Origin: a virus
Virus record (IMG/VR): IMGVR_UViG_3300005095_000546
Location: 1 to 21,824 of that record
Direction: 5' to 3' (one strand)
Length of the DNA: 21,824 nt
Shown: piece after piece, positions 17,896 to 21,711 of the stretch
Layout: each line of letters begins with the position of its first letter
Numbering within the stretch: position 1 is the stretch's first letter
Notes under the pieces: generated by a model
Databases searched by the model: none
What the model was told of the DNA's origin: nothing
What the model saw: only the letters and a program-made list of their open reading frames with translations
Translations under genes and position numbers: made by a program

Positions 17896-17908
17896 GTTTC
17901 CACCAAGA

Positions 17909-17926
17909 TAAAAAGAAAAAAGAAAT
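17909..17926 (-). terminator. T-rich stretch, possible partial terminator or attenuator
   Basis: Read leftward, the 70-base gap between the 98 aa coiled-coil gene and the protease gene holds TTTCTTTTTTCTTTTT just upstream of the protease ribosome binding site. Archaeal termination often needs only T-runs, so part of the transcript may end here and lower expression of the genes behind. It may equally be an unpaired leader. Confidence 0.3.
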
Positions 17927-17965
17927 TAAAGCTTCTGCAACACAATCTTCTCAAGTAGGTCTAAC

Positions 17966-18262
17966 TTACCTCTGAGCTGGGCCACCTCCGATTCCAACGC
18001 CCCCAGCTTTGCCTCTTAATGCTCTGATTTCTTCTTTTAATTCATCGATCTCTTTATCTTTCTTAGCCAGTTCTGCTTTTAGTTCTGCAATTTTCTCACT
18101 TTGTGATTTTTCATGATAGAATTGTTCCATTTCACTTCTTCTTACCAAAGTATCAACTTTGTCTTTTCTTATTGTTTCTTGTGCTATTTTTTCAACATAA
18201 TCGCTCTTTTTAGGAACTAAATCATCTATTGCATCAGTATCTTTCTTCCCAAACAATGCCAT
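17966..18262 (-). CDS. small coiled-coil protein, first gene of the structural operon
   Basis: I chose the ATG at 18262, preceded by AAGGTG, giving 98 aa (MALFGKKDTDAIDD at the start). A GTG at 18328 extends the frame upstream but lacks a ribosome binding site and would cover the palindrome at 18294-18307. Residues about 15-80 are charged and helical with a heptad pattern (SEKIAELKAELAKKDKEIDE), a probable coiled coil. The end is a Gly-rich tail (GGVGIGGGPAQR). I recognise no family. At the head of the operon and before the protease, a minor capsid or assembly factor is likely. Confidence 0.65.
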   Translation of the reverse strand: MALFGKKDTDAIDDLVPKKSDYVEKIAQETIRKDKVDTLVRRSEMEQFYHEKSQSEKIAELKAELAKKDKEIDELKEEIRALRGKAGGVGIGGGPAQR

Positions 18263-18293
18263 AACGAACACCTTTTTGTTGTATTGTATTAGA

Positions 18294-18307
18294 ATGTGGG
18301 GCCCCAC
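18294..18307. repeat. perfect 14-bp G+C-rich palindrome in the structural-operon leader
   Basis: TGTGGGGCCCCACA is a perfect palindrome with a fully G+C core of eight bases in an A+T-rich genome. It lies about 40 bases downstream of the predicted start of the structural transcript and 32 bases before its first ATG. In RNA, GGGGC and GCCCC could pair around a short loop. It could be a protein or nuclease site, a leader hairpin or a recombination site. Confidence 0.5.
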
Positions 18308-18330
18308 AGCCCCTATGCAAAACCGCACCG

Positions 18331-19238: not shown

Positions 19239-19484
19239 TTATCTTCTTAAACGCTCTTTCAAATCTTTAATTGTCTCTTCATTAAACTTTATCATCTTAA
19301 TACAATTCTCAATCTCAATCTTTAATAACTCTTCTGTTAATTTACATCCCTTTCCTTTTAACATATTCAAAGTTCTCTTATAATCTGCTATTTTATTTCT
19401 AAGTTTTTTATTCTCTCTTTTCAAATGATTTATTTTAATAATCAACTCTATTCTCTCAGTTCTACATTTATGCTTTATTGGCAT
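19239..19484 (-). CDS. small coiled-coil protein, 81 aa
   Basis: Very basic and helical, with long heptad-like stretches ([20 protein letters not shown] and [17 protein letters not shown]) and three cysteines (KCRTE, GCKLT, NCIK). TTTTGGTGG precedes the ATG. I recognise no family. A dimeric coiled-coil adaptor or a small DNA- or RNA-associated protein is possible. It follows the 239 aa gene after a T/A-rich gap of 28 bases. Confidence 0.65.
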
Positions 19485-19512
19485 AAAACCACCAAAAAAA
19501 ATTTTAAAAAAA

Positions 19513-20232
19513 TTAATAAGTGATAATCACATACGACTTTCTCTTTTTTGCCTCAGCTATTACCATCTGCAAATACTTTGGCTCAATAATATGTTTTAAT
19601 GCATTCCTTATCGCCTTTGAAGCTAAGACAGTATATTTAAACTCCTCTCCCATTCTACCAGGGCTTACCCTTTCAGCAGTCCCCACCATAACAATATTCC
19701 TTCTCAAATCCCTAACTCTACATGTTGCTATAATTTTTCCATTCACTTCTTGGAAAGTTGGTGGCTCTACCTCAATATTTCCCTGCATCCTCATTGCTTT
19801 AACAATCCCAGCCCATGAGAGAATTATCTTCTCCTTTCCTGTTTTTTTATCAGGATAAGTGTATGCCAAAGGTAGATGCTCATTAGCTTCATCCAATAAC
19901 ATCAAATCCTCATCTAACGTGTCCATTTTTTCAATAACATTATCTAATGTCTCTACCTTTTCAACAGTTTTCTCTAAGACAACCATCGCATTGTTTGATG
20001 CTTTAACTTCAACATTATTTCCATTTGTCTTCATCTTCTCCTCCTCCCTAAGTTTTTTAAATTCATCTTTTAGATTTAAGTTCTCTAACCATTTAACAAA
20101 CGCAGCTGATTCAGCAATCCAATTATTATGCTCCTTTCTGATTTCTTCAACTTGCTTTTTAATCTCCTCTGGTTTAATCTCAACACCATAAACATTTTTA
20201 TGTGCCTTTGAAGCTAATTCATACTTGCACAT
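19513..20232 (-). CDS. conserved archaeal virus/plasmid protein, possibly single-strand DNA recombination
   Basis: The 239 aa protein has a helical, charged first part (1-115, coiled coil near 84-112) and a conserved-looking second part: residues 133-155 ([20 protein letters not shown]), 166-187 ([20 protein letters not shown]), then 202-230 ([19 protein letters not shown]). I associate this pattern with proteins common in archaeal viruses and plasmids, and its 'KA.RNA.r..i' end recalls RecT/Rad52-type annealing proteins, but this is not established. GAGGAGG precedes the ATG at 20232. A second very strong site, GGAGGAG, precedes Met67 (20034), so a 173 aa form may also be made. Confidence 0.5.
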
Positions 20233-20456
20233 ACTTCCAACCTCCTCTTGTGTAAATCCTCATTTTCCTTCCTTTTAATTGCCTTCTTAGCCCTTTTCCA
20301 CGCTCTAAGACCAACTCGTCTAACACAACAACCGAAACCTTCCAGCATTTCTTTCGTTTCTCTAAACTCCTTTTCCGACATGCAAACCCCATAACTATCT
20401 ACCCGCCCATCAAATTCAACAACAAAATAGATTTTATTTGATGAATATCGCATCAT
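20214..20456 (-). CDS. hypothetical protein, 80 aa, basic C terminus
   Basis: The start follows GGAGGGAGGG inside the end of the upstream 58 aa ORF, and the end overlaps the next gene by 19 bases, so this is a tightly coupled middle gene. Strands at the N terminus (KIYFVVEFDGRVDSYGVCMS) lead to a helix (EKEFRETKEMLEGFGC) and a highly basic C terminus (RAWKRAKKAIKRKENEDLH). The order and charge would allow a nucleic-acid-binding role. I recognise no family. Confidence 0.65.
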   Translation of the reverse strand: MMRYSSNKIYFVVEFDGRVDSYGVCMSEKEFRETKEMLEGFGCCVRRVGLRAWKRAKKAIKRKENEDLHKRRLEVCASMN

Positions 20457-20610
20457 AACCCTCCCTCCTAATATCAGAGCATAATCTAACTCTTAGTTCC
20501 CTAATCAAATCCTCAGCTTCCTCCAACTTCAAAATCGCTCCAACAGTGTCTCCATTATTATAATCACTCTTCGCCCTTTCCAAAACCTCAACTATTTTAT
20601 TTATTTGCAT
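20434..20610 (-). CDS. small ORF, 58 aa, first gene behind an internal promoter
   Basis: ATG at 20610 to TAA at 20434. AGGTGGG precedes the ATG. The product is helical and acidic (MQINKIVEVLERAKSDYNNG, then AILKLEEAEDLIRELRVR, ending GYDAIFIK). It overlaps the next gene by 23 bases and carries that gene's ribosome binding site. A TATA-like box at 20649-20658 lies about 40 bases upstream of the ATG. I recognise no family; real by context. Confidence 0.65.
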   Translation of the reverse strand: MQINKIVEVLERAKSDYNNGDTVGAILKLEEAEDLIRELRVRLCSDIRREGYDAIFIK

Positions 20611-20648
20611 ATTCCCACCTACAATTATTTGCTCCTAAAAACCAAAAA

Positions 20649-20658
20649 TATTTAAATA
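20649..20658 (-). promoter_or_regulatory. probable internal promoter (TATA box)
   Basis: Read leftward, TATTTAAATA follows CGAGTTTTC, which is BRE-like in position. A start about 25 bases on (near 20625) would give a short leader before the GGTGGG site of the 58 aa ORF. It lies in the 72-base gap behind the histone gene and would drive the small-gene cluster down to the regulator. Confidence 0.5.
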
Positions 20659-20665
20659 GAAAACT

Positions 20666-20680
20666 CGAAAAACAAAAAGT
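20666..20680 (-). terminator. T-run terminator behind the histone gene
   Basis: Read leftward directly behind the histone stop is CACTTTTTGTTTTTCG, two runs of five T's. Archaeal RNA polymerase terminates at such T-runs without a hairpin. It separates the methyltransferase-histone unit from the small-gene cluster and overlaps the upstream edge of the next promoter. Confidence 0.45.
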
Positions 20681-20682
20681 GC

Positions 20683-20967
20683 TTAGGCAGTTATCTCTGC
20701 AACTGATACTCCATAAATCTCCTCAATCAACGCAGCTAAATACCCATTATCTTCTATAGCTTCGATTATATCCTCCTTCTTTATGGTCTTCCTTCCTGAT
20801 TTTTGTGCGTTCATCCTCGCCTTAGACATTATCTCAATCAAAATCTTTTGCAAGTAGTTGTTAAGTTCCTCAACTGCCTCATTAGAAATCCTGAAATCAT
20901 AACCGCTTTTAGGATAGTTATCCACAATCTCCTTCATCGTCCTCTTCAAAGTTGCCTTAGGAATCAT
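20683..20967 (-). CDS. archaeal histone with C-terminal extension (MJ1647-like)
   Basis: A histone-fold DNA-binding protein of 94 aa. Helix 1 lies near residues 4-15 (KATLKRTMKEIV), the central helix near 28-56 (SNEAVEELNNYLQKILIEIM), and the classic second-loop motif is SGRKTIKKEDI at 57-67, as in HMf-type histones, followed by helix 3. Loop 1 (DNYPKSGYDF) is longer than in HMf. Residues 72-94 (EDNGYLAALIEEIYGVSVAE) form an extra C-terminal helix, like the extension of M. jannaschii MJ1647, which makes tetramers that bridge DNA. It may compact or shield viral DNA or alter host transcription. GAGGTGAGAG precedes the ATG. It follows the methyltransferase gene after nine bases. Confidence 0.9.
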   Translation of the reverse strand: MIPKATLKRTMKEIVDNYPKSGYDFRISNEAVEELNNYLQKILIEIMSKARMNAQKSGRKTIKKEDIIEAIEDNGYLAALIEEIYGVSVAEITA

Positions 20968-20976
20968 GCTCTCACC

Positions 20977-21711
20977 TCAGCTTTTATTTATATAATCAAA
21001 TAAAGTCGCCTGTCTCGATTTTGGCTTAGCCTCACTTTTTGAAAATCCATTTATAATCTCTAACATTTTTCCAGCCATCTCATTTACTCTATCGCATTCT
21101 CTCACCTGCCGCCAGTGGATATTTGGAAACCAACCCCAAAATTCGTTAGTAAGGGCATTACCCCAATAAACCTCACAAGGAATACCCCACAATGTAGTGT
21201 TAATAAAACAAAGTTGTGTTGCAGTGTAGTCAATGTCTATTGCAATAACTCTAAGATTATAAGGGCTTATTTTCTTTTCAACTAATGTATTTGCGAGGGA
21301 GAGTATCATTTGCCCTGCTCCGCATGAGGGCTCTATAATTCTAATTGGCATTTTTTGTTTTTCAGTGCTGGTTATTTTACTTATTAGATCGCAAATTGGT
21401 TTTGAAGTATAGAATTCCCCCTTTAGAGATTTGTTTTTTAGGCTTAGGTAGTATTCTCCCAAAATGTCTGTGTATGGTTTATTTTCCATTTCTATGATTA
21501 AACAACTAAAAGCTTCAGAAAATAGTTCCAAATGTTCTTTTTCCCACTTTTGAGCTTCTTCCTTGTAGTCATTTTCTCTTAATCCTGCTGATAAGGCACA
21601 CGCTGTTAATTTAGCAAATGCATTGAAAATTGTTAAAGCATCTCTTCCAGAAGTTCTGCTAATTTTTTCTAATGGTTTTATATATTTGAATTTGAATTCA
21701 TTTTTTGCCAT
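20977..21711 (-). CDS. N6-adenine-type DNA methyltransferase-like protein, catalytic motif not seen
   Basis: The 244 aa protein resembles the core of type I (HsdM/N6) methyltransferases. KGEFYTSKPICDLISKI (97-113) is the usual segment before motif I, IIEPSCGAGQM (125-135) is motif I that binds S-adenosylmethionine, and VIAIDID (155-161) is motif II. The catalytic (N/D)PP(Y/F) motif is absent; the place where it would follow reads GNALTNEFWGWFPN. Phages have small relatives of this kind ending in a similar GN.L segment, so it may be a degenerate or non-catalytic member, perhaps a SAM- or DNA-binding regulator. GAGGTTGC precedes the ATG. It overlaps the upstream ORF by 34 bases. Confidence 0.75.
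   Translation of the reverse strand: MAKNEFKFKYIKPLEKISRTSGRDALTIFNAFAKLTACALSAGLRENDYKEEAQKWEKEHLELFSEAFSCLIIEMENKPYTDILGEYYLSLKNKSLKGEFYTSKPICDLISKITSTEKQKMPIRIIEPSCGAGQMILSLANTLVEKKISPYNLRVIAIDIDYTATQLCFINTTLWGIPCEVYWGNALTNEFWGWFPNIHWRQVRECDRVNEMAGKMLEIINGFSKSEAKPKSRQATLFDYINKS

Follow-up and report, generated by a model that had tools for sequence, protein, structure and literature searches.

A diverged relative of the archaeal histone MJ1647 encoded by a tailed virus of Methanocaldococcus

Are histones a means by which prokaryotic viruses control their own genomes or those of their hosts? This question is opened by a small gene in the IMG/VR record IMGVR_UViG_3300005095_000546, whose positions 1-21,824 (21.8 kb) were analysed here as a whole and are called the window. 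A sequence-only reading had described the product as an MJ1647-type histone of a tailed virus, with a long first loop and a helical, DNA-bridging C-terminal extension. Our results suggest that the virus uses this protein within the cell to organise DNA or keep it silent; the protein may also bridge DNA.

The viral histone gene and its carriers

The window is a tailed virus of Methanocaldococcus, a genus of thermophilic, methanogenic archaea. Its genes encode a large terminase, a tape measure protein and a protein with a Mu F-like domain, and there is a weak match to a major head protein. The earlier reading that the histone is encoded by a virus was upheld. The gene is a minus-strand ORF with its start codon ATG at 20967 and its stop at 20683. 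The plus-strand reading of 20683-20967 was discarded, since its frame is interrupted by stops and contains no ORF. The features of the locus are as follows.

20683..20967, minus strand: viral histone gene, 94 aa (fold about 1-71, tail 72-94); ORF with Pfam, NCBIfam and PDB matches, copies at 90-96% and purifying selection
20890..20922, minus strand: loop 1 codons, residues 16-26, including the 8-residue insert relative to MJ1647 and canonical histones and R26; from the alignment, with about 17-28 helix-free in both AF2 models
20770..20793, minus strand: loop 2 codons, R59-K60-T61 to D66; invariant alignment columns
20686..20754, minus strand: codons of the C-terminal extension, residues 72-94, acidic, without Lys or Arg, a helix predicted at low confidence; from AF2 models, alignment and profile test
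20968..20977, minus strand: ribosome-binding site GAGGTGAGAG, directly 5' of the start codon; conserved in three viruses, abutting the stop of the upstream gene
20660..20685, minus strand: T-run TAAGCACTTTTTGTTTTTC, directly 3' of the stop; nearly identical in the window, the provirus L003 and MFTV1
20977..21711, minus strand: co-directional upstream gene, N6 DNA methylase-like, 244 aa (PF02384, E 9.6e-11); L003 and MFTV1 have unrelated genes instead
20434..20610, minus strand: small downstream gene, 58 aa, common to L003 (95%); from the comparison of neighbours
20602..20990, no strand: DNA patch common to MFTV1 with the whole histone gene inside, a mobile or conserved cassette (blastn, 87% over 392 columns)

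The T-run is probably an archaeal transcription terminator. The gene is not a chance ORF, because three distinct copies are 90-96% identical, their pairwise dN/dS is 0.10-0.20, and the ribosome-binding site and T-run are conserved. The dN/dS values indicate purifying selection on the protein.

Close copies (90-96%) were found only in MFTV1 and one other provirus. MFTV1 is an isolated virus of Methanocaldococcus fervens (Fervensviridae), and its protein gp29 (YP_010772324.1), annotated merely as "hypothetical protein", has 94 aa, is 90% identical to the window protein and shares its last 23 residues exactly. Among 50,697 phage records, MFTV1 (under two accessions) was the only match to either the window histone or MJ1647, and a canonical histone as query gave 0 matches in the same records. 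Single-sequence and profile scans of IMG/VR returned the same two contigs only, and no match was present among 72,556 plasmids, which gives no sign of a plasmid origin.

The carriers are related to the window to different degrees. L003 is akin to it over 8.4 kb, mostly structural genes, at 90% DNA identity. MFTV1 is much more distant and shares only four patches of DNA with the window, one of which takes in the histone gene, some 20 bases before it and some 80 after it; its neighbouring genes are otherwise unlike those of the window. The gene upstream of the histone is adenine methylase-like in the window, a 221-aa gene in L003 and gp30 in MFTV1. In a metagenomic relative, L061, whose capsid protein is 89% identical, other small genes occupy the syntenic place and no histone is found there; this record extends beyond the place in question but is incomplete, and the absence applies to that place only. 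The viral histone thus behaves as an accessory cassette common to Methanocaldococcus viruses of at least two different groups, a status that follows from the patch shared with MFTV1, the differing upstream genes and the absence at the syntenic place in L061. The DNA of the tail (20686-20754) is identical between the window and MFTV1, whereas many silent differences separate the two in the histone-fold part, and recent exchange between viruses would explain the identical tail.

Several neighbouring loci show related patterns. Two other patches shared with MFTV1 (window 17900-18315 and 19247-19512, 82-87% DNA identity) each span one small gene (98 aa and 81 aa), the structural genes being otherwise unlike; these patches may be further exchanged cassettes with no assigned function. 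The gene directly downstream of the histone (window 19513-20232, minus strand; L002:10202-11134; L061:1170-2051) has about 70 N-terminal residues in common among the viruses, but the remainder has been swapped: MFTV1 and L061 have a KaiC/RecA-like ATPase part (by a weak Pfam match), the window and L003 a domain without known assignment. A neighbouring 239-aa gene had no functional match in PDB, Pfam, PHROGs or NCBIfam. Terminase relatives (58% identity) were found at G025:C2:338207-339502 and G031:C57:1837-3120, in two additional Methanococcales genomes where no close viral histone occurs, and these loci are probably related proviruses lacking the gene.

The histone fold and its relationship to MJ1647

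The protein matched Pfam PF00125 (E 3.8e-10, 40.5 bits, cut-off 26.4) and PF00808 (E 6.3e-10, 39.6 bits, cut-off 21.4), and barely reached the cut-off of 50 of the NCBIfam archaeal histone model NF043032 (50.6 bits). The best PDB sequence match was 8bdk, MJ1647/HmvA of M. jannaschii (E 1.7e-9). The SGRKTIKKEDI motif is present, and the earlier assignment of a 94 aa histone-fold protein was upheld by these matches. The alignment showed that loop 2 retains RKT and its aspartate (R59-K60-T61...D66). Loop 1 is 8 residues longer than in MJ1647 and canonical histones, and neither AF2 model contains a helix at about 17-28, in agreement with the long first loop that had been proposed. This loop carries an arginine (R26) where MJ1647 has Asn; in canonical histones the loop 1 arginine points into the minor groove. 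The Leu/His pair of the canonical dimer-dimer contact is replaced by Asn53/Lys56, as in MJ1647.

Compared with MJ1647/HmvA (Methanococcales "Mc" histones, arCOG02145, PDB 8bdk), the viral protein has a similar MIPKATLKR-like N-terminal start, a fold about 50% identical with the same Asn/Lys replacement, and an extension ending in a similar ...LI-E...V...E[IL] stretch. It differs by the loop 1 insert and arginine, by a shorter tail without Lys80, by being encoded in a virus and by its position outside the host members. Canonical archaeal histones of the HMfB and HPhA type (35-40% identity) share the fold, the loop 1 Arg and the RKT...D motif, but they have no long loop 1 and no tail. Histones forming canonical hypernucleosomes have about 67 aa, a short loop 1 and the Leu/His pair; the viral protein, with 94 aa, a longer loop 1 and Asn53/Lys56, falls outside this class.

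Histones with a helical C-terminal extension predicted to tetramerise, some of them viral, have been described as phage and coiled-coil histones. In the "phage histones", helix 3 is cut down to 3-4 residues and the RxTxxxD motif is absent, and the coiled-coil histones are marked by a long helix at the C terminus (Schwab et al. 2024, PMC11390915). In contrast, the viral histone has a full helix 3 (64-72 or 64-73), R59-K60-T61...D66 and a tail helix of at most 18 residues, and an assignment to the "phage histone" family was rejected on the full helix 3 and the RKT...D motif. The histones of giant viruses (Marseilleviridae, medusavirus) are likewise virus-encoded, but they are eukaryote-like, mostly fused doublets that wrap virion DNA, and belong to an unrelated type of host and virus (PMC9145170, PMC11390915).

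Matches to the viral histone were found in 28 of 36 Methanococcales genomes. Two of these, G005 and G015, contain close copies (90 and 96%), and each also has its own chromosomal MJ1647 orthologue elsewhere, so that the viral histone is a virus-borne paralogue. Nearly all other matching genomes contain the orthologue only, 42-55% identical over the histone fold, and some have canonical histones in addition. The viral protein is 40-48% identical to the host orthologues (about 50% in the histone-fold core). In unrooted trees of 63-67 columns, viral and host Mc proteins were split from canonical histones with 100/100 support. The viral histones branched outside all host MJ1647 members, and a grouping with the Methanocaldococcus proteins was rejected (AU p=0.015, in an unrooted tree of few columns); rapid viral evolution could contribute to this position. 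The label "MJ1647-type" therefore holds as far as the closest family and the split from canonical histones are concerned, but not for the position outside the cellular clade or the replaced Lys80.

Mc histones have been described as exclusive to the order Methanococcales (PMC11390915). In the text of a review of viral histones that was covered by a term search, tailed and archaeal viruses are not mentioned (PMC9145170). No earlier report of this viral gene was found in the literature searched, which left out the paper describing MFTV1. A diverged Mc relative in an isolated virus whose host can be grown makes a direct test of histone-based genome control possible.

The C-terminal tail and DNA bridging

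Two AF2 monomer models of the viral histone were compared, one built with host and viral rows (the richer model) and one with viral rows only. The richer model has helices at 4-17, 29-56, 64-72 and 76-93, with high confidence for helices 2 and 3 and low confidence for the tail; the virus-only model has helices at 4-16, 29-56, 64-73, 75-85 and 89-93. A C-terminal extension of about 23 residues beyond helix 3 (72-94) is thus present as claimed. Its helical nature was borne out in part: both models predict helix, but at low confidence (block-mean pLDDT of the tail 37-64 in the richer and 59-75 in the virus-only model), and they disagree on one helix (richer) versus two short ones (virus-only). 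Foldseek ranked 8bdk first for the richer model (E 2e-3), but its top hits for the virus-only model were NF-YB chains (E 4e-3), so that any predicted tail shape is tentative.

MJ1647 tetramers depend on a 27-aa two-helix module with a conserved K80-E95 salt bridge, and Lys80 is reported to be strictly conserved among MJ1647 homologues (PMC10516927). The viral tail may act in the same way, joining two dimers back to back in a true bridging tetramer that holds two duplexes. This is a sharper form of the chromatin-protein explanation given below and compatible with it; we hold it tentatively, somewhat short of an even chance. MJ1647 is the closest family, the final residues of the tail can be matched to the MJ1647 C terminus, Glu95 is kept as Glu91, and the two short tail helices of the virus-only model are MJ1647-like. 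Single-sequence shuffle tests against MJ1647-type tails gave fractions of 0.007-0.49, above the shuffles for some orthologues only; the fraction was 0.007 against MJ1647 itself and 0.03 summed over seven orthologues. In contrast, only 27 residues follow the DI of helix 3, versus 37 in MJ1647 (10 fewer), the tail is acidic and contains no basic residue, the richer model has a single low-confidence tail helix, and the test against the MJ1647 family profile gave no support for tail homology (0.09-0.16 of shuffles were as good). The K80-E95 salt bridge is not kept, since Lys80 is replaced. This loss is not fatal to bridging, because salt-bridge mutants of MJ1647 still bridge DNA (PMC10516927). Given the shorter tail, the replaced Lys80 and the profile test, the "DNA-bridging extension" did not stand as it had been worded.

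Possible roles of the viral histone

We consider the protein to be a virus-borne, non-wrapping chromatin protein, a diverged MJ1647-type relative whose target in the cell would be viral (or host) DNA, and we give this explanation about an even chance. We infer that it would dimerise and bind DNA without wrapping it; most likely a histone-fold homodimer forms and contacts DNA via loops 1 and 2 (R26, R59-K60-T61). Stacking in HMfB-type canonical histones requires a small loop 1. No canonical hypernucleosomes would be expected from the viral protein, given its larger loop 1 and the substitutions at the canonical dimer-dimer positions. The acidic C-terminal helix may join dimers or tune binding. 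Inside the cell, the histone would organise DNA or keep it silent, and its simplest target would be the viral genome in lysogeny or early infection. Silencing could proceed by blocked promoter access, as MJ1647 does in vitro (PMC10516927). The whole protein has a net charge of -1 and pI 5.5 (net +5 for the histone fold alone); such slight acidity would be uncommon in a strong DNA compactor and counts against this explanation.

The simplest role would be folding or silencing of the viral genome or adjustment of host chromatin, rather than DNA packing in the capsid; an intracellular role is the simplest because the viruses also occur as proviruses, the L061 site has no histone and the gene lies on the opposite strand in MFTV1. 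The choice between silencing and host interference, like bridging itself, is speculative. A fuller version, in which the virus's own bridging or looping histone silences or folds its genome in the cell and the cassette is passed between unlike viruses, we find rather doubtful; if true, the protein would be the histone-based equivalent, in archaea, of the H-NS-like silencers that phages encode.

The histone could also interfere with its host, forming mixed dimers or tetramers with host MJ1647 or competing for DNA, and so loosen host chromatin for the virus. The hosts of two viral copies do have their own MJ1647, and the core is about 50% identical to it. The divergence is strong, however, including loop 1 and the tail, and mixing is not automatic, since MJ1647 does not pair with the canonical histone A3 (PMC10516927). 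We regard such interference as unlikely.

The protein could instead be a transcription regulator of the NF-YB/NC2-beta kind, whose helix following helix 3, resembling theirs, would contact a partner subunit or the basal machinery and not compact DNA. NC2-beta aligns over residues 2-83, including the stretch past helix 3, and NF-YB chains were the top Foldseek hits of the virus-only model. By sequence, however, MJ1647 is much the closer relative (E 1.7e-9 versus 0.0032), which places the protein outside this class, and MJ1647 also ranks first for the richer model. NF-Y and NC2 act as pairs with a second subunit. No partner subunit and no second histone-fold gene were present among the neighbouring genes scanned (a subset of ORFs), and a regulator of this kind seems improbable to us.

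Packing of the genome in the capsid by a virion protein, as with Marseilleviridae histones, is very improbable. In both the window and L003, the histone gene precedes the structural genes on the same strand, which makes late expression possible there. Against this role, the strand is opposite to the structural block in MFTV1 and the gene is missing at the corresponding place in L061. The window also encodes a terminase, and in tailed viruses the terminase motor pumps naked DNA.

A plain host gene copy, newly acquired or misassigned to the virus, is hardly credible: all close relatives outside viruses are host genes of the same family, but the identity to the chromosomal orthologues is just 40-48%, the tree rejects a place within the host clade (AU p=0.015), and the gene is present in the isolated virus MFTV1. 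A recent copy is ruled out by this divergence and the tree, and old capture from an unsampled host lineage is the sole possible form left.

Histones of another kind were seen elsewhere in IMG/VR. Seven other contigs (L066-L072) each encode an archaeal histone that is canonical-like and normal in size. One of them is the 47.7 kb contig L068, in which the histone gene (L068:5001-5210) adjoins genes weakly matching head-tail connector families. Another tailed archaeal virus thus seems to carry a wrapping-type histone, and histones seem to have been taken up more than once by archaeal viruses.
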